Shown here: one piece after another, positions 24,681 to 33,915 of the stretch
Numbering within the stretch: the stretch's first letter is position 1
How the letters are laid out: each line of letters starts with the position of its first letter
Source of the DNA: Salinigranum halophilum
Lineage (GTDB): Archaea; Halobacteriota; Halobacteria; Halobacteriales; Haloferacaceae
Assembly: GCF_007004735.1 (NCBI RefSeq)
Contig: NZ_SSNL01000003.1
Location: 434,001-498,000 of the forward strand
DNA length: 64,000 nucleotides
Direction: 5' to 3'
Translations under genes and position numbers: made by a program
The notes under the pieces: generated by a model
Told to the model about the DNA's origin: nothing
Seen by the model: the letters and a program-made list of their open reading frames with translations, nothing else
The model's database searches: none

Positions 24681-26642
24681 ATGTCCAATGATAATAACAC
24701 GCATGGGTCGGGGCTCTCGCGCCGACGGATGCTGGTGACGACGGCAGCACTGGGTACCGCTGGTCTCGCCGGCTGTGGTGGACAGAGCGGTGACGGCGGC
24801 GGGGGTGGGAGCGGAAGCGGAAGTGGTGGTGACGGCGGTTCCGGTGGAAGTAGCGGTGGCGGTAACGGCGGCGGTGGCGACGGTCGGAACGTCCAGACGA
24901 TGTTCCGCGGGGAGTGGCCCATCGAGACGAAGAACAACGACAACATCCCGTTCGAGTACACCGTGACCGAGGGGGCGGCAGTCCCCGAGATTACGGTCAA
25001 CTTCGCGTCCGACGAGGAGCCGTGGATGCGCGAACACGCGCTGATGATCCAGCGCGCGTTCACCGACGTCGGCGTCCCGGTGGCGCTCGACGACGTCCCG
25101 ACGAACGTCATGTACGACGAGTACTGGGCGGCAGACACGGGTCACACCGTCTCGGTGTCGATGAACACTCACGGCCCCGACCCGCAGCGTGGACTCGACC
25201 CCAACCCGTTCTTGATGCGGATGCACCCGCGGACGGGCGGGAACTACTACAACTACAACAACCCCGAGATAACGGAACTGCTCGAGCAGCAGGCGACCGA
25301 AATCCAGGACCAAGAGCGTCGCGTCGAACTGTGTCACGAGATACAGCGGAAGGCGAGCGATGACGCCTACATCCTCTCTATCGCGTTCACCGACGTCATC
25401 ATGGCGGGCAACACCGCCGACTGGGAGGGGTACGTCCCCATGCCCGGCAACGGGACCAACCGCGACTCGTTCATCTGGACGCAGGTGAACCTCCAGCCGA
25501 CCGGCGACTCGAGTACGTGGGTCAAGGGCGTCCTCGCATCGATGGGCGGCCTGAACATCGCGTGGGCCGGCGGTGGCCCCGAGGCGAAGCGCCTCACGAA
25601 CCTCTACGACGGCCTGTTCGACGCCTCGCCGCAGCTGGAAATCGTCCCGGCGCTGGCGACGGACGCCACCGTCGTCGACGAGACGACCGTCGAGGTTCAG
25701 CTCCGCGAGGGCGTCCAGTGGCACGACGGCGAGGCGTTCGGGCCTGACGACGTGAAGTTCAGCGTCGAACTGTTCAAGGAGTACAACTCCCCCGAGATGG
25801 GGCCGTTCTACGAGCCCATCGAGAGCGTGGAGGTCATCTCCGAGAGCGGGGGCGGTGCAGTCCGGTTCAACCTCAAGCGACCCGACGCCGCCTTCCTGAC
25901 CCAGCGGATGGTTCGCAGCGTCATCCTCCCGAAACACAAGTGGGAGAACGTCGACAACCCGGCCCAGCACAACCCCGAGAACCCTGTCGGGACGGGCCCG
26001 TTCCAGTTCTCCAGCTGGGAGCAGGGGACCCGCTTCGCCGTCGAGAAGAACCCGGACCACTGGATGTGGGACGAGTCGGTCCGCGAGGAGCTGCTGGGCG
26101 AGTACTTCACGTCGGGAGACGGCATCGACGGCATCGTCTGGGCCAACGTCGGCAACGTCGACGCGCTCATCGGGGCGATGCAGAGCGGCGACATCGACGC
26201 CATCGGGACGACGCTGTCGAACGACCAGGCCGACCGCGCCGCGTCGACGAGCGGCGTCGAGAAGCAGGTGTCGAAGAACTACGCGCCGCTGGACGTCCAC
26301 ATCAACCACATCAACCCGCTCATCCGGGACAAGGAGTTCCGCAAGGCGCTGAGCCACTCGGTCGACAAGGAGGGGTTCGTTCAGGGCGTCCTCGGCGGCC
26401 GCGCGACAGTCATCGAGGGACAGAACCTCATCTCGCCGATGATGAGCCCGTTCTACACCGGAGACATCCCGACGTACGAGTACAACCCCGAGCAGGGCAA
26501 GCAGTTGCTCCAGCAGGCCGGGTACACCTTCGACGGTGACACGCTGGTGGCCCCGTCCGGCGACGCCTGGGACGCGTTCGCCGCCCGCGTCGAAGACGGG
26601 CACGCCGACCGGTCCGACCTGGACCAGCCCGACTTCTCCTGA
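24681..26642 (+). CDS. ABC transporter substrate-binding lipoprotein (SBP family 5), circularly permuted order
   Basis: A 653-residue Tat-exported lipoprotein (SRRRML at 13-18, lipobox LAGC with Cys32) with a Gly/Ser-rich linker at about 36-70. Its SBP-family-5 domain is in unusual order. Residues about 100-260 look like the usual C-terminal part: PEITVNFASDEEPWMREHA, MIQRAFTDVGVPVAL, then YNNPEITELLEQQATEIQDQ. Residues about 300-630 look like the usual N-terminal part: RLTNLYDGLFDAS, WHDGEAFGPDDVKFSVE, VGTGPFQFSSW and YNPEQGKQLLQQAGY. Normally YNPEQGKQLLQQAGY precedes PEITV. It should bind a peptide or other solute for the permeases downstream. Confidence 0.9.
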   Translation: MSNDNNTHGSGLSRRRMLVTTAALGTAGLAGCGGQSGDGGGGGSGSGSGGDGGSGGSSGGGNGGGGDGRNVQTMFRGEWPIETKNNDNIPFEYTVTEGAAVPEITVNFASDEEPWMREHALMIQRAFTDVGVPVALDDVPTNVMYDEYWAADTGHTVSVSMNTHGPDPQRGLDPNPFLMRMHPRTGGNYYNYNNPEITELLEQQATEIQDQERRVELCHEIQRKASDDAYILSIAFTDVIMAGNTADWEGYVPMPGNGTNRDSFIWTQVNLQPTGDSSTWVKGVLASMGGLNIAWAGGGPEAKRLTNLYDGLFDASPQLEIVPALATDATVVDETTVEVQLREGVQWHDGEAFGPDDVKFSVELFKEYNSPEMGPFYEPIESVEVISESGGGAVRFNLKRPDAAFLTQRMVRSVILPKHKWENVDNPAQHNPENPVGTGPFQFSSWEQGTRFAVEKNPDHWMWDESVREELLGEYFTSGDGIDGIVWANVGNVDALIGAMQSGDIDAIGTTLSNDQADRAASTSGVEKQVSKNYAPLDVHINHINPLIRDKEFRKALSHSVDKEGFVQGVLGGRATVIEGQNLISPMMSPFYTGDIPTYEYNPEQGKQLLQQAGYTFDGDTLVAPSGDAWDAFAARVEDGHADRSDLDQPDFS

Positions 26643-26671: not shown

Positions 26672-27655
26672 ATGAGTTTCAGACGCTTCCTCGTCAAACG
26701 GGTCGCCATCTCGATCGCCCTGACACTGGTCTCCGTCTCGATTATCTTCCTCGCGCTCCGGCTGCTCCCGGGGGACCCGTTCAGTTCGCTCATCGCCTCC
26801 GGGGGGCTCACCCAAGAACAGGTCCAGGCGTTGCGGGTCCAGTACGGCCTCGACGAACCCGTCTACGTCCAGTACGTGAAGTACGTCCAGAGCCTGTTGA
26901 CGCTCAACTTCGGCTTCTCCATCGCACAGAGCCGGCCGGTGAGCGAGATCATCTTCCCGCGGCTGCTCAACACGATGCTACTCCTGGTGCCGGCGCTGGT
27001 CGTGACGGCCATCGTCAGTTCGGCGCTCGGCTCGTACGCGGGCTGGAACCGCGGGTCGTCGTTCGAGCAGCTGAGCATCGTCGTCACGACCTTTTTCCGG
27101 TCGACGCCGGTGTTCGTCACCGGCATCTTCTTTCTCATCATCTTCTCGTACCAGCTCGACCTCTTCCCGGCGTTCGGGATGCGGAGTCCGGTGGCGAACC
27201 CCGAGGGACTCGTCGAGACGTATCTCCACCCGGACTTCGCGATGCACTACTTCCTGCCCTTCCTCGCGACCGTGCTGTACTACAGCGGTGACTTCCTGCT
27301 GCTCGCACGCAACTCGGTCGTCGAACGCAAGGGGTCGGCGTTCCTCACGCTCCACCGCGCCAAGGGGCTCTCCGAGATGGAACAGCTCGCCCGAGCCGGC
27401 CGGAACTCGATGCTCCCGCTGTTGACGTACTTCGCGCTCCGGCTGGGCATGATGTTCCAGGGCGTCATCACGCTCGAGGTGGTGTTCGCGTGGCCGGGTA
27501 TCGGTCGCGCGCTCGTGTTGGCCATCAACCAGAAGGACTACCCGACGGTCCAGGCAGCCATCTTCATCATGGCCTTTGCGGTCATCGTGATGAACCTCCT
27601 CGCGGACGTGATGTACGCGAAAGTCGACCCGACGGTCGAGGGAGGTGACGTCTGA
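26672..27655 (+). CDS. ABC transporter permease, DppB/OppB type
   Basis: A 327-residue inner-membrane permease of the peptide/nickel ABC importer family. It has an N-terminal span (VAISIALTLVSVSIIFLALR) followed by the family motif LLPGDPFSSL. Several further spans follow, then the EAA cytosolic loop HRAKGLSEMEQLARAGRNSM that contacts the ATPase. Its stop codon shares one base with the ATG of the next gene (TGATG). It lies 29 bp after the binding-protein gene in the same operon. Confidence 0.92.
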   Translation: MSFRRFLVKRVAISIALTLVSVSIIFLALRLLPGDPFSSLIASGGLTQEQVQALRVQYGLDEPVYVQYVKYVQSLLTLNFGFSIAQSRPVSEIIFPRLLNTMLLLVPALVVTAIVSSALGSYAGWNRGSSFEQLSIVVTTFFRSTPVFVTGIFFLIIFSYQLDLFPAFGMRSPVANPEGLVETYLHPDFAMHYFLPFLATVLYYSGDFLLLARNSVVERKGSAFLTLHRAKGLSEMEQLARAGRNSMLPLLTYFALRLGMMFQGVITLEVVFAWPGIGRALVLAINQKDYPTVQAAIFIMAFAVIVMNLLADVMYAKVDPTVEGGDV

Positions 27656-28584
27656 TGTCACTGCTCTCTGTGGTCTCGGTCGACCGGAGCGAGCTGAAAG
27701 AGCGGGCCTCGGAGAACCTCACGCGGGCGAAGAACGTCATGGCCGTCGTGCTCAAAGACGACGCGGCGAAGGTCGGCGTCGCGGTCTTGCTCGTCTTCTT
27801 GTTCCTCGGGCTGTTCGGGCCGGCGCTGGCTCCATACGAGCCTATCGAGCACACGATGGAGACCGAGGACGGGCAGATGATGCGGATGGCCCCGCCCAAC
27901 AGCGCGGCACCGCTCGGCACGACGACGTTCGGCAAGGACGTGCTGAGCCAGTTCCTCGCCGGCGCGCGGCCGACGTTCATCGTCGGCTTCTTCGGCGGCG
28001 TCGGCACGGGGGTCGTCGGCTTCCTCGTCGGCCTGACGAGCGGCTACTTCGGCGGGCGGGTCGACGAGGTGTTGATGCGCCTGACCGACCTGACGTTCGC
28101 GCTGCCGTTCCTGCCGATGGCGCTGCTCGTGCTGACGTTCGTCCAGCCGAACATCGTCCTCATCACGGCGGTCATCGTCGCGTTCTTCTGGAAGATGCCC
28201 GCGCGGGTCATCCGGTCGGAGGTGATGACCGTCCGCGAGCGAACGTTCGTGAAGTCCGCCCGTGCCGCCGGTGCGGGGCACGGTCGAACCATGTTCTTAC
28301 ACGTCGCGCCGAACGTCATCGGCGTCGGTTTCCTCTACACCGCCTACGCCGTCTCCTGGGCTATCGCGGGCCAGGCGTCGCTCGCCTTCCTCGGCTTCGG
28401 CGACCCGACGGCCACCTCCTGGGGACGGATGCTCCAGCAGGTGTTCGAGTCCGGCGGGATGCGCGAGGCGTGGTGGTGGGTGCTCCCACCGGCCATCGGC
28501 ATCGCGGCGGTGACGACGTCGGTGTTCCTCGTCGGCCGCGCGTTCGAGGAGGTCGTCAACCCCGAACTACGGAGTGAAGACTAG
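27655..28584 (+). CDS. ABC transporter permease, DppC/OppC type
   Basis: A 309-residue second permease of the importer. It begins with a cytosolic segment, then a first span at about 38-60. The DppC motif AAPLGTTTFGKDVLSQFLAG follows, then a core of about five spans with the EAA loop SARAAGAGHGRTMFLHVAPN. The start overlaps dppB by one base. The stop is 1 bp before the ATPase gene's ATG, so all transporter genes are coupled. Confidence 0.92.
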   Translation: MSLLSVVSVDRSELKERASENLTRAKNVMAVVLKDDAAKVGVAVLLVFLFLGLFGPALAPYEPIEHTMETEDGQMMRMAPPNSAAPLGTTTFGKDVLSQFLAGARPTFIVGFFGGVGTGVVGFLVGLTSGYFGGRVDEVLMRLTDLTFALPFLPMALLVLTFVQPNIVLITAVIVAFFWKMPARVIRSEVMTVRERTFVKSARAAGAGHGRTMFLHVAPNVIGVGFLYTAYAVSWAIAGQASLAFLGFGDPTATSWGRMLQQVFESGGMREAWWWVLPPAIGIAAVTTSVFLVGRAFEEVVNPELRSED

Positions 28585-28585
28585 T

Positions 28586-30640
28586 ATGAGTCTACTCGAA
28601 GTCGAAGACCTACGAATCAGGTACAAGACGTCCGAGGACGACGTCCACGCGGTCAACGGCGTCTCCTTCTCGGTCGACGGTGGCGACAACTACGGGCTCG
28701 TCGGCGAGTCCGGGTGCGGCAAGTCGACCATCGCCCACTCGGTTCTCGGCCTGCTCGACGACAACGCCCGCATCGACTCCGGGACCGTGCGGTTCGACGG
28801 GCAGGACCTCCTCGACCTCTCCGAGAAGGAGTGGCGTGACGTCCGCTGGCAACGGATCTCGTACATCCCACAGAGCGCGATGGACTCGCTCGACCCCGTC
28901 ATGACTGTGGGGAAGCAGATCAGACAGGCCATCAGGACACACCGTGACGTCTCGAAGGCCGACGCACAGGCGAGAGTCGACGAGGTGTTCGAAATCGTCG
29001 GTCTCGACCCCGAGCGGACGACGGACTACCCCCACCAGTTCTCCGGCGGGATGCGCCAGCGCGTCACCATCGCGATGGCGCTCGCGCTCGACCCGGACCT
29101 CATCATCGCCGACGAGCCGACCACCGGATTGGACGTCATCGTCCAGGACAAGATCATCCACAAGCTGCTGGAGATTCAAGACGAGATCGACAGTTCGCTG
29201 CTGTTGATCACCCACGACATCGGCGTCGTGGCCGAGACCTGCGACGACGTCTCCGTGCTGTACGGCGGGAAGGTGATGGAGCAGGGGGCGACGCGAGACG
29301 TCCTGAAGCACCCGACCAACCCCTACACGATGGGGCTGAAGAACTCGTTCCCGGACATCGACGACTTCGACCACCAGGCCATCTCCATACCTGGGTCGCT
29401 TCCGGACCTCACGGAGGAGCCGACTGGCTGTGTGTTCCGAAACCGGTGTCCGTTCGCGACCGACGAGTGTGAGGAGGGACACCCGCCCATCGAACCCGTC
29501 GAGAACCAGCGGTCGGCCTGCTACCACACCGACCGCGTCGGACAGTTCCGCGCGGAGGCGACCGAACCCGAGACGTGGGGGCTCGAGTTCGTCGAACGCG
29601 GCGAAGGGCGCCGCGCCGGCGACACCGTCCTCGAGACCGACGACCTCTCGAAGTGGTTCACACAGACACAGGGCATCGTCGACCAGCTCCGCGGGCGAGA
29701 GCCCAACTACGTCAAGGCGGTCAACGAGGTGGACATCGACGTCCGCGAGAACGAGGTCGTCGGGGTGGCCGGCGAGTCCGGCTGCGGCAAGTCCACGCTC
29801 GGGGAGGTCATCTCCGTCCTCCAGCCCCGGACGGCCGGGAGCATCAGCTTCCGCGGGACCAGCGTCGACGAGTACCTCGACGGCGGGGCGAAGGAGTTCC
29901 GCTCGAAGGTGCAGTTCATCTTCCAGGACCCGTTCGACTCGCTGAACCCCAGACAGACCGTCCGTGCCGCGGTGGCGGAACCGCTGAAGATTCAGGGGCG
30001 CGAGCGCCGCAACATCGAGGAGACGGTCCGGAAGACCCTCTCCGACGTCGGGCTCAACCCGCCGGAGAAGTATCTCGACGACTACCCACACCAGCTGTCG
30101 GGCGGGGAGCGCCAGCGCGTCGCCATCGCGCGCGCGCTCGTCCTCGACCCCGAACTGCTCATCTGCGACGAACCGGCGTCGATGCTCGACGTCTCGCTGA
30201 AGGCCAGCATCCTGAACATCCTGCGGAAGATGGCCGACGAGCGCGACATCGGCATCGTCTACATCTCCCACGACCTGGCGAGCCTCTCACAGATCAGCGA
30301 CCGACTCGCCGTGATGTATCTCGGGCGCATCGTCGAACTCGGGCGGACCGAAGAAATCGTCCAGAACCCGAAGCATCCGTACGCCGCGTCGCTCCTGTCG
30401 GCGTCACCGAACGCCGACCCGACCGAGAAGCGACAGCGGGTGTTGCTCCCGGGCGAGCCGCCGAACCCGGTGAACCTCCCGTCCGGCTGTAACTTCGCGC
30501 CGCGCTGCCCGAAGGCGACCGACGAGTGTCGGGACGCGGAACCGGAGCGGACCACCTACCAGGACGGCGACCACGAGGCCGCCTGTTACCACCCCGTCGA
30601 ACGCATCGAGCGCGAACTGCTCGCGGAGTACGAGCGATGA
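28586..30640 (+). CDS. Fused double ABC ATPase (DppD-DppF type)
   Basis: A 684-residue protein carrying two complete oligopeptide-transporter ATPase domains. The first has Walker A GESGCGKSTIAHS, signature FSGGMRQRV and Walker B LIIADEPTTGLD. The second has GESGCGKSTLGEV, LSGGERQRV and LLICDEPASMLD. Each half ends in the oligopeptide C-terminal motif with Cys clusters (NRCPFATDECEEGHPPIE and APRCPKATDECRDAEPE). These can bind an Fe-S cluster in relatives; that is inference. The ATG at 28586 is preferred over a GTG at 28574 inside the previous gene. It overlaps the following lyase gene by 4 bp (ATGA). Confidence 0.92.
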   Translation: MSLLEVEDLRIRYKTSEDDVHAVNGVSFSVDGGDNYGLVGESGCGKSTIAHSVLGLLDDNARIDSGTVRFDGQDLLDLSEKEWRDVRWQRISYIPQSAMDSLDPVMTVGKQIRQAIRTHRDVSKADAQARVDEVFEIVGLDPERTTDYPHQFSGGMRQRVTIAMALALDPDLIIADEPTTGLDVIVQDKIIHKLLEIQDEIDSSLLLITHDIGVVAETCDDVSVLYGGKVMEQGATRDVLKHPTNPYTMGLKNSFPDIDDFDHQAISIPGSLPDLTEEPTGCVFRNRCPFATDECEEGHPPIEPVENQRSACYHTDRVGQFRAEATEPETWGLEFVERGEGRRAGDTVLETDDLSKWFTQTQGIVDQLRGREPNYVKAVNEVDIDVRENEVVGVAGESGCGKSTLGEVISVLQPRTAGSISFRGTSVDEYLDGGAKEFRSKVQFIFQDPFDSLNPRQTVRAAVAEPLKIQGRERRNIEETVRKTLSDVGLNPPEKYLDDYPHQLSGGERQRVAIARALVLDPELLICDEPASMLDVSLKASILNILRKMADERDIGIVYISHDLASLSQISDRLAVMYLGRIVELGRTEEIVQNPKHPYAASLLSASPNADPTEKRQRVLLPGEPPNPVNLPSGCNFAPRCPKATDECRDAEPERTTYQDGDHEAACYHPVERIERELLAEYER

Positions 30641-31482
30641 CGGACACCGCTCGCCCGCGCCGGTCCGCGCTGTTCACGCCCGCCGACGACGTCGAGATGC
30701 TCCGGAAGGCGCTCGGAACCGACGCCGACGCGTTCATCTTCGACCTCGAGGACGCCGTCCACCCCTCGCGGCGGGAGGCGGCCCGCGAGAACCTGCGGGC
30801 GTTCCTCCCCGACCTCGACGTGGACCGCGAGGTCGCCGTTCGAGTCAACGGCCGGGGCACCGACGACTTCCCGGACGACCTCAAGACCGCGGTCGAGGCC
30901 AGGGCCGACGCGGTCGCCCTCCCGATGGTCGAATCGGGTCGCGACGTCCGCGAGGCGTGGGCAGCGCTCTCGACGCTCGCCGACGACCCGCCGCCGCTCC
31001 GCGTGACCGTGGAGACGCCGACGGGGATGCACGCTGGCTCGGAGATCGCCGCGGCCTGCCGAGAGACGGGCGTCGAGAGCCTCGCGTTCGGCTTCGCGGA
31101 CTACTGCAAGGCCATCGGGTCGCCCGGGACGCCGGACCGGGTCAGAGAACGGCTCGAACTGCTCACCGTCGAGTACGCCGCGATGGCCGGCGTCGACCCC
31201 GTCGCGTCCGTCCACCTCGACATCGGCGACGAGGACGGACTCCGTCGGGTCGCCGAGCGGGCCCGCGCCACGGGGTTCGTCGGGATGACCGCCATCCATC
31301 CGGCACAGGTCGGCGTCATCAACGAGGCGTTCACGCCGCCAGACGACGAGGTGGCACAGGCGAGACGGCTGGTCGAGGCGTTCGACGCCTCCGAGCGGGA
31401 CTCCCTCGAAGTCGAGGGCGTCTTTCTCGACACGGCGACCGTCGACCGCTACCGCCGGCTGCTCGAACGCGCGCCCGAGTAG
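30637..31482 (+). CDS. HpcH/HpaI or citrate-lyase-beta (CitE)-like CoA-ester lyase
   Basis: A 281-residue TIM-barrel enzyme of the CitE-like family, which cleaves or forms malyl-CoA, citramalyl-CoA or similar esters. Motifs are RSALFTPADD, FDLEDAVHPSRREAAR (Asp/Glu metal site), RVNGRGTD, LPMVESG, VETPTGMHAGSEIA and GFVGMTAIHPAQVGVINEAF. The exact substrate is unknown. Its ATG overlaps the ATPase stop (ATGA), so it is the last gene of the transporter operon. It converges with the acyl-CoA synthetase 34 bp away. Together these suggest breakdown of an imported compound to CoA esters. Confidence 0.87.
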   Translation: MTDTARPRRSALFTPADDVEMLRKALGTDADAFIFDLEDAVHPSRREAARENLRAFLPDLDVDREVAVRVNGRGTDDFPDDLKTAVEARADAVALPMVESGRDVREAWAALSTLADDPPPLRVTVETPTGMHAGSEIAAACRETGVESLAFGFADYCKAIGSPGTPDRVRERLELLTVEYAAMAGVDPVASVHLDIGDEDGLRRVAERARATGFVGMTAIHPAQVGVINEAFTPPDDEVAQARRLVEAFDASERDSLEVEGVFLDTATVDRYRRLLERAPE

Positions 31483-31515: not shown

Positions 31516-33630
31516 TTAGTCGCGCGTCCGGACGAGCGCGTCGACGGCGACCGGTCCGTCTTCGGTGACGAGCACCGGGTTGAGGTCGAGTTCGGCGACG
31601 TCGGTCGATGCGGCCAGGTCCCCGACCGTCACGACGACGTCGACGAGTTCGTCGACGGAGAGCGCATCGCCGCCACGTCTGTTCTCGAGGAGGTCGGCGA
31701 GCGCCGTGGCCTCGACCGCCTCGTGCGCGTCGGCCCGCGAGAACGGCGGCACCAGCACCGTGGCGTCGTCGACGGCCTCGACGAGCACCCCGCCGGCCCC
31801 GACGGTCACGAGCGACCCGAACACCTCGTCCGGCGAGACGCCGACGATGGCCTCGACGCCGTCGTCGACCATCGGCTGGACGAGGACGCCTTCGATGTTC
31901 TCGTCGGGAGCGTTCGCCCGTGCAGCCTGCATAATCGCGTCGAACGACTCGCGAGCCGAATCGGGGGAGTCGACGCCGACGTGAACGGCCCCGATGTCGG
32001 TCCGGTGGGGGAGCGCCGGCGAGTCGACCTTGAGCACGACCGGGAAACCGAGGTCCGCCGCGGCGGCCGCGGCCTCGTCGGGTGTCGTCACCAGCCGCGT
32101 CTCGACGACGGACACGTCGAACGCCGAGAGCAACCGCTCGCTCTCCGCCCACGTGAGGACGCGGCCGCGCGGGATGTCGACCGGCGGGGCGGTGAGTCCC
32201 TCGGCGAGTTCGGCGCGCCCGGGTCGTGCGGCGAGTCGGTCGCGGTCGGCTACCGCGTCGACGAGCGAGGCGACGGCGTCCAGACATCGACCGGGGTCCT
32301 CGTACACCGGGACCGAACCTCTGAGTCGTTCGTACGGCGGGGTCTCGGTCGGGTCGTCGGGGACCTTCCGTCCGGTCCAGAGGACGAACACCGGGTCGTC
32401 GGCCCGCTCGACGATGGCCTCGAGGTCGGCGGCGACGCGCGCGGCGCGGTCGTCGACCGCAGAGAGGCCGATGGCGAAGACGTACGCGTCGAACGCGTCG
32501 TCCGCGAAGAGCGTATCGGCGATTTCGGGGAGGACCTCCGCCCCGTAGCCGCGGATGTCCGCCGGGTTGTGGAACGCGCCGAACGTCAGCAGTTCGTCCA
32601 TGTCGAGCAGGGTCCGTTCGGTCTCGCCGTCGATGTCCGGGAGCGAGAGGCCGCGCTCGTCGGCCAGGTCCGCGAGGAGGCTCGCGAGTCCGCCGCTCGT
32701 GGAGGCGATGGCGACGCGGTCGCCGTCGGGCACGTCGTACGCCGCGTGGGCGCTCGCCTGCGAGAGCAGGTCGGGGATGTCCGGGACCCGCTGGACGCCG
32801 GTCTGTCTGAACGCGGCCGCCCAGGCGTCGTCGTCGCCGGTGAGCGACCCCGTGTGCGACAGCGTCGCGGCCTCGGCGACGTCGCTCTGCCCGATCTTGA
32901 CGGTGAGGACCGGCGTTCCGGCACGCGTCGCGGCCTCGGCGACGCGCATGAACCGCTCGGGGTCGGTCAGCCCCTCGACGTACGCGCAGATGACGTCGAC
33001 CGTCTCCTCGGCGGCCAGATACGCGACGTAGTCGCTCGTGGTGAGGTCGGCCTCGTTGCCGGTCGAGACGATGTGGCTGAAGTGGACGTCGGCGTCGGCG
33101 GCCCGCTCGAAGAAGGTGGTGAACGCGAGCGCGCCGGACTGGCTGACGAGGCCGATCGCGCCCGGCTGCGGCTCGCGCGAACACGTCGCGGTCAGGGTCG
33201 CCCCGCGCGAGGACATCACGCCGATGCAGTTCGGCCCGACGACGTGGATACCCACATCCTGTGCAGTGGCGGCGAGTTCGGACTCCAGTTCCGTTCCGCG
33301 GTCGTCCGCCTCGGAGAACCCCGCGGCGACGACGAGGGCGACGGGGACACCGCGTTCGCCGGCCGCGCGCACCACGTCGACCACGTACTCGCGGGGGACG
33401 CTGACCACGACGAGGTCGACGGTCTCGGGGACGTCGTCGACGTCGTCGTAACAGGTTCGGCCCCACACCTCGTCGCGCTTCGGGTTCACCGGGTACAACG
33501 GCCCGTCGAAGCCGTAGTCGAGGAGGTTGTCGATGAGGTTGCCGGCGTAAAACGAGTCCGGACTCGCGCCGACGACGGCGACGGAGTCGGGGTCGAACAG
33601 CGGGGCGAGGTCGGGAGCGTCGACTGGCAT
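31516..33630 (-). CDS. ADP-forming acyl-CoA (acetyl-CoA-type) synthetase, fused alpha-beta
   Basis: A 704-residue NDP-forming acyl-CoA synthetase, which interconverts acyl-CoA + ADP + Pi and acid + CoA + ATP. Domain order is a CoA-binding Rossmann domain (about 5-130, SVAVVGASPDSF), two succinyl-CoA-ligase-like domains with the phospho-His loop ATLSHTGSLTGDD, and an ATP-grasp domain from about 480 (FPVVLKVDSPALPHRTDIGA). The C-terminus ELDLNPVLVTEDG is typical. In haloarchaea such enzymes conserve energy from acyl-CoA. It may process the product of the neighbouring CitE-like lyase. A TATA box ATTTATC (33665-33671) with AAACGTTT just downstream controls it. Confidence 0.9.
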   Translation of the reverse strand: MPVDAPDLAPLFDPDSVAVVGASPDSFYAGNLIDNLLDYGFDGPLYPVNPKRDEVWGRTCYDDVDDVPETVDLVVVSVPREYVVDVVRAAGERGVPVALVVAAGFSEADDRGTELESELAATAQDVGIHVVGPNCIGVMSSRGATLTATCSREPQPGAIGLVSQSGALAFTTFFERAADADVHFSHIVSTGNEADLTTSDYVAYLAAEETVDVICAYVEGLTDPERFMRVAEAATRAGTPVLTVKIGQSDVAEAATLSHTGSLTGDDDAWAAAFRQTGVQRVPDIPDLLSQASAHAAYDVPDGDRVAIASTSGGLASLLADLADERGLSLPDIDGETERTLLDMDELLTFGAFHNPADIRGYGAEVLPEIADTLFADDAFDAYVFAIGLSAVDDRAARVAADLEAIVERADDPVFVLWTGRKVPDDPTETPPYERLRGSVPVYEDPGRCLDAVASLVDAVADRDRLAARPGRAELAEGLTAPPVDIPRGRVLTWAESERLLSAFDVSVVETRLVTTPDEAAAAAADLGFPVVLKVDSPALPHRTDIGAVHVGVDSPDSARESFDAIMQAARANAPDENIEGVLVQPMVDDGVEAIVGVSPDEVFGSLVTVGAGGVLVEAVDDATVLVPPFSRADAHEAVEATALADLLENRRGGDALSVDELVDVVVTVGDLAASTDVAELDLNPVLVTEDGPVAVDALVRTRD

Positions 33631-33656
33631 CGATTGACCTGGCTCGCCGCTCGTGA

Positions 33657-33664
33657 AAACGTTT
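33657..33664 (-). promoter_or_regulatory. AAACGTTT element at acyl-CoA synthetase promoter
   Basis: The 8-bp palindrome AAACGTTT lies between the minus-strand TATA box (GATTTATC, about 33664-33672) and the expected transcript start of the synthetase gene. The same core is inside the dpp operon palindrome at 24639-24646. Placement just after TATA suits a repressor site. Confidence 0.42.
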
Positions 33665-33915
33665 GATAAATCGTTGCATTTGTGATGGGGAACTGACCCG
33701 ACGGACGACTGAACGTCGTCGCAGTCGCTGGAAACGAGTGAGTTTTGACGCCGGCGACGAAACGGGGTGACGGTGGCAGTGACGACAGTTACCCCCTCCG
33801 AGCCCCTTGTGACGAGGACCTCTCCCGAGCCACCGTTCTGAGCCACCGCGAAGCTGCGTGTGAACTTCTCGCACAGCCGCGCGCCGGTTACCTCGCGTCA
33901 CGTCCACACTCGCGT

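Follow-up and report, generated by a model that had tools for sequence, protein, structure and literature searches.

Circular permutation of a family 5 (cluster C) substrate-binding lipoprotein in haloarchaea and, independently, of a binding-protein gene in Archaeoglobus

The window analyzed here, a stretch of 64,000 nucleotides from Salinigranum halophilum, encodes a substrate-binding protein (SBP) of family 5 in which the usual C-terminal part comes first and the usual N-terminal part last. With a probability of about 0.94, this protein is a genuine and working circular permutant of a cluster C substrate-binding lipoprotein. The swapped sequence order is conserved in a family of relatives, the gene stands in a transporter operon under purifying selection, and the rearrangement has originated repeatedly.

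The gene (24681-26642, forward strand) is a single uninterrupted frame of 653 aa with an ATG start, in which all of the motifs quoted by a first-pass annotation are present; its parts and its neighbors are collected in Table 1. In alignment A1, the SRR of the leader is invariant and the lipobox region is kept in most rows. A tail of about 35 residues after AGY is conserved in the window subfamily; in most other permuted subfamilies the protein ends closer to AGY. The Gly/Ser linker had been regarded as giving the new N-terminus its reach, but it is not specific to the permutation, since many other proteins encoded in this genome have a similar leader and linker and the permuted Archaeoglobus proteins carry only a short leader.

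Table 1. Parts of the permuted binding protein and adjacent genes (positions in the window)
Feature	Position	Strand	Basis or remark
Tat-type lipoprotein signal, SRRRML ... LAGC, predicted lipidated Cys32	24681..24776	+	sequence itself
Gly/Ser-rich tether, residues 33-68	24777..24884	+	length varies among orthologs (sequence, alignment A1)
Old C-terminal block, residues ~98-263, in normal order the final third of SBP family 5	24972..25469	+	crossing PDB matches, C-part HMM, hhalign
Old N-terminal block, residues ~264-615, SBP_bac_5 profile 1-283 of 368, ends at LLQQAGY helix	25470..26525	+	Pfam, PDB matches, block HMMs, hhalign
New C-terminal tail after AGY (GDAWDAFxxRVEDGHADRxDLDQPDFS) and stop	26526..26642	+	alignment A1
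DppB/OppB-type permease	26672..27655	+	NCBIfam
DppC/OppC-type permease	27655..28584	+	NCBIfam
Fused DppD-DppF ATPase, 688 aa, two ABC domains	28574..30640	+	NCBIfam, OppD-like 7-318, dipeptide/OppF-like 348-677
CoA-ester lyase (RipC/CitE-like), overlaps ATPase stop	30637..31482	+	conserved neighbor
ADP-forming acyl-CoA synthetase-like gene, convergent	31516..33846	-	conserved neighbor

Membership in family 5 is indicated by the Pfam profile SBP_bac_5 (PF00496), which scores 189.6 bits against a curated cut-off of 32.4 and places residues 320-620 on profile positions 1-283 of 368. Since the match stops at position 283, the end of the family is absent from its usual place. A C-part HMM instead matches residues 102-261 with 213 bits. 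Searches of the PDB by phmmer gave crossing pairs of matches: on 5isu, residues 321-616 align to chain positions 58-337 and 116-244 to 353-475 (E 1e-4), while on 5u4o, residues 307-617 align to 74-361 and 175-250 to 432-504. A similar crossing pair was obtained with 6i3g, and residues 97-257 align to positions 364-514 of OppA (8are). When residues 264-615 were placed ahead of 98-263 and joined to them by a short connector, a single full-length alignment resulted to 1xoc, 5isu, 5u4o, 6i3g and others. Family profiles compared by hhalign behaved likewise: in native order, 188-518 falls on 20-343 (score 560) and 17-164 on 348-485 (score 193), again crossing, and the re-ordered family profile gives one match of 13-521 to 19-489 with a score of 745, near the sum of the two. 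For 26 permuted proteins, a profile spanning the new fusion was built; among its best 60 PDB matches none crosses the fusion, and the solved relatives match one side, or both sides separately. Both segments are homologous to the same parent, each occurs once, their order is swapped and they become colinear after re-ordering, as is expected of a circular permutant. The proposals of the first-pass annotation that the usual C-terminal part leads and that neither part is duplicated are borne out by these alignments, and profile alignment of the halves does not return the blocks in normal order.

The permuted order is widespread. A search of 170 genomes of the family yielded about 35 full-length matches with 48-91% identity that run colinear with the window protein, and named records of such orthologs stem from Halomarina, Halorussus, Halorubrum and Halolamina. 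The first-pass annotation had suggested a search of haloarchaeal genomes for the same order, and it was indeed found elsewhere: the fusion-spanning profile has matches in 175 of 391 Halobacteria genomes and 55 of 85 genera (E <= 1e-40), nearly all of the matches listed covering both sides. A two-HMM classifier applied to the fetched open frames returned 119 permuted, 37 normal and 3 undecided, with some genes counted more than once. The window's own genome holds five other family 5 binding proteins, four in normal order and one undecided. The survey covered the window's own archaeal phylum together with Pseudomonadota genomes, plasmids and viral contigs. Elsewhere in the phylum, matches are almost all one-sided, as in the normal order, except in four genomes of one family, which appears to be Archaeoglobi. 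In about 300 Pseudomonadota genomes a single fusion-spanning match was found, in Microvirga vignae, a lower bound given that the best seven candidates per genome were considered at a strict threshold. Plasmid searches yielded permuted relatives in Neorhizobium, Salipiger, Roseomonas, Ketogulonicigenium, Nitratireductor and Maritalea, all Alphaproteobacteria; these alphaproteobacterial relatives are single collinear matches, and most of the plasmid ones adjoin Dpp-type permease and ATPase genes. The scan of viral contigs for further permuted sequences found only two relatives, both in normal order. Pairwise dN/dS among permuted pairs is 0.04-0.17, and the values of 0.08-0.17 within the window subfamily indicate purifying selection.

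Two permuted proteins (L120:1992-4646, 884 aa; L125:1938-4139, 733 aa) are extended at the N-terminus by long regions that match no Pfam family. At L119:27-3923, a PAP2-family membrane protein is flanked by two permuted-type binding-protein genes; the first frame of this locus was considered as an N-block-only protein and rejected, the frame being cut by the locus start.

The window SBP is encoded with DppB/C permeases and D/F ATPases, as is typical of family 5, and the gene order SBP-B-C-DF-lyase-synthetase is also found in Haladaptatus (L155). Because a CoA-ester lyase and an acyl-CoA synthetase are conserved next to the transporter, there is a hint that its candidate substrate is an organic acid rather than a peptide.

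Three other explanations of the window protein were weighed. An assembly or sequencing artefact that joined gene pieces in the wrong order, for which nothing speaks beyond the oddity itself, has a negligible probability and is refuted by the colinear orthologs in other assemblies: the same order recurs in dozens of independent assemblies, complete plasmids among them, and the gene is one intact frame with dN/dS well below 1. The protein might also consist of an unrelated or duplicated domain followed by a complete SBP in normal order, and members with extra N-terminal regions (L120, L125) do exist; however, the family 5 profile breaks off near the end of the protein, and the third that is lacking there occurs once, at the front, so that this explanation is likewise refuted and deemed very improbable. 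A somewhat less remote, still improbable explanation accepts the permuted protein as real but assigns it a changed role, such as a ligand sensor or a partner-dependent binding protein, instead of the delivery subunit of an importer. The L119 locus, where no Dpp permease was found within 6 kb, is in keeping with such a role, but the window protein and most of the relatives checked directly adjoin Dpp-type permease and ATPase genes, which speaks against a changed role.

Both orders were found within one orthologous gene in Archaeoglobus, and this case is a recent natural circular permutation. The gene is present in 27 of 59 genomes of the class of G516 (apparently Archaeoglobi); 24 of the orthologs are arranged leader-N-C, and three (G516, G555 and G508) leader-C-N (loci L171-L181, including comparisons). 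Genomes of the same genus (G492, G504, G615 and G964) have the normal order and are 83-87% identical to the permuted forms. Pfam places residues 74-438 of a normal ortholog on profile positions 1-367, and residues 241-519 of a permuted one on 1-279. The leader and the bases just upstream are alike in the two forms; the seams lie at EEAKK/LKIELWW and YYLVYSEEQKD/TITIGVTDK, the G516 protein ends at AGYSE, and the break falls in the same loop as in the window protein. The permuted gene of G516 diverges from an intact B-C-D-F operon, whereas the SBP and permease genes of the normal-order G461 are co-directional, so the locus was rearranged as well. A remnant of a second copy was searched for around the permuted Archaeoglobus genes and was not found. 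What looked like an N-terminal remnant behind the normal gene in G470, and hence like a tandem-duplication intermediate, proved to be an over-extended alignment. Tandem duplication with partial loss, or segmental transposition, are possible mechanisms. With dN/dS of 0.04-0.07, the permuted gene is maintained. Since orthologs in normal order lie between the two, it was permuted independently of the haloarchaeal ones.

In a tree built from an alignment with the two blocks brought into the same order (71 rows, 442 columns), 26 permuted proteins form one branch with a support of 100/98, comprising the window protein, other haloarchaeal subfamilies and most of the alphaproteobacterial ones. A single clade of all permuted proteins was rejected (p 0.0018, and p 0.008 on a smaller set); the rearrangement arose independently at least twice and probably three times. 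Separate origins were not upheld for the Microvirga/Salipiger type and for L111, which may belong to the main permuted clade, a grouping that was not rejected (p 0.56 and 0.40). The positions of some divergent lineages of permuted proteins are uncertain, and the topology test of L106 was borderline (p 0.051). A shared origin of L106 with the A. fulgidus permutation was rejected because normal-order orthologs separate the two; as L106 lies outside the Archaeoglobus ortholog group, it is most simply a third permutation event. A normal-order haloarchaeal SBP (L141:1360-3042, G055) has unusually high scores against the two block profiles of the permuted clade and is a candidate for the nearest unpermuted relative of that clade, although in the tree it falls among other archaeal proteins of normal order.

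Nearly all permuted representatives end shortly after the LLxxAGY helix and start shortly before the strand that normally follows. In normal relatives this site corresponds to a connector of variable length, which in 1xoc is the loop following 'AGW'. A mechanism was proposed in which the old C-terminus of an ancestor became fused to its old N-terminus, new chain ends arose in the loop that joins the LLxxAGY helix to the next strand, and the secretion leader was kept in front. The window protein would then leave the cell through Tat, carry its lipid on Cys32 and presumably fold into an ordinary OppA/DppA-like clamshell, which should be unchanged since the rearrangement links the former ends and opens a loop. 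The first-pass annotation had pointed out that both ends of the normal protein lie in one lobe, which would make a permutation structurally possible. AlphaFold runs on a six-sequence input, for the full-length and trimmed protein, had mean pLDDT values of 40.7 and 40.9. Ligand binding would likewise be retained, and the SBP would deliver its solute to the adjacent DppB-DppC-DppDF importer. The main physical consequence would be one of tether geometry, with the membrane tether attached at the AGY loop and no longer at the usual N-terminus. A second permuted binding protein of the Archaeoglobi-type family (L106:1730-3472, G575:C2) lacks a lipobox and has a PGF-CTERM (archaeosortase-type) anchor at its new C-terminus, which again puts the anchor at the AGY loop. 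Tentatively, and with the odds somewhat against it, cluster C binding proteins might have been permuted at least three times independently in the same loop, both because this loop is one of the rare places that permit the chain to be opened anew and because the moved anchor changes docking to the importer; the lineages would be the haloarchaeal/alphaproteobacterial clade, the A. fulgidus group and the paralog L106 with its PGF-CTERM anchor, with the Microvirga/Salipiger type and L111 as possible further ones.

In most cases, a natural circular permutation is inferred from a comparison of distant families. The Archaeoglobus orthologs, about 85% identical in two orders, amount to a natural experiment with the states before and after permutation in sister species, which makes effects on folding, ligand affinity, membrane tethering and delivery testable, as well as recurrence at the same loop. 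The permuted SBPs are a large living subfamily within one of the commonest families of nutrient-uptake proteins, hidden because profile searches report a truncated family 5 match and the annotation reads 'substrate-binding protein'. Annotation based on sequence order misjudges permuted proteins, a point for caution. The permuted SBPs are also natural scaffolds for the design of biosensors, for which permuted binding proteins are made by hand.

Among known systems, the window protein is most similar to SBP family 5 / cluster C (OppA, DppA, AppA, GsiB and NikA), with both blocks homologous over nearly the full length, a DppBCDF-type operon and a predicted exported lipoprotein, but it differs in the swapped blocks and in the new termini in the loop after LLxxAGY. 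MglB-2 (Tp0684) of Treponema pallidum, a 'type Ic / cluster Bc' glucose-binding lipoprotein, is also a naturally permuted, lipid-anchored ABC binding protein of a conserved subfamily, for which anchoring or membrane tethering was proposed as a possible reason for the permutation (PMC4990184). MglB-2, however, has the cluster B sugar-binding fold with one lobe rearranged, and its permuted part is too diverged to be aligned convincingly, whereas the profile and PDB matches of the window protein are to family 5; nor was a before/after pair between sister species reported for MglB-2, unlike the Archaeoglobus case. Glycine-betaine-binding and molybdate-binding proteins were related by circular permutation through CPSARST (PMC2395249), a comparable relation among bilobed binding proteins that was detected by structure at <24% identity between different families, whereas here both orders occur in one orthologous gene. 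Within the open literature, permuted binding proteins were found described in cluster B and in the glycine-betaine/molybdate pair, and none in cluster C. In conclusion, permuted binding proteins are already known in other fold clusters, and the cluster C case is an addition to them.
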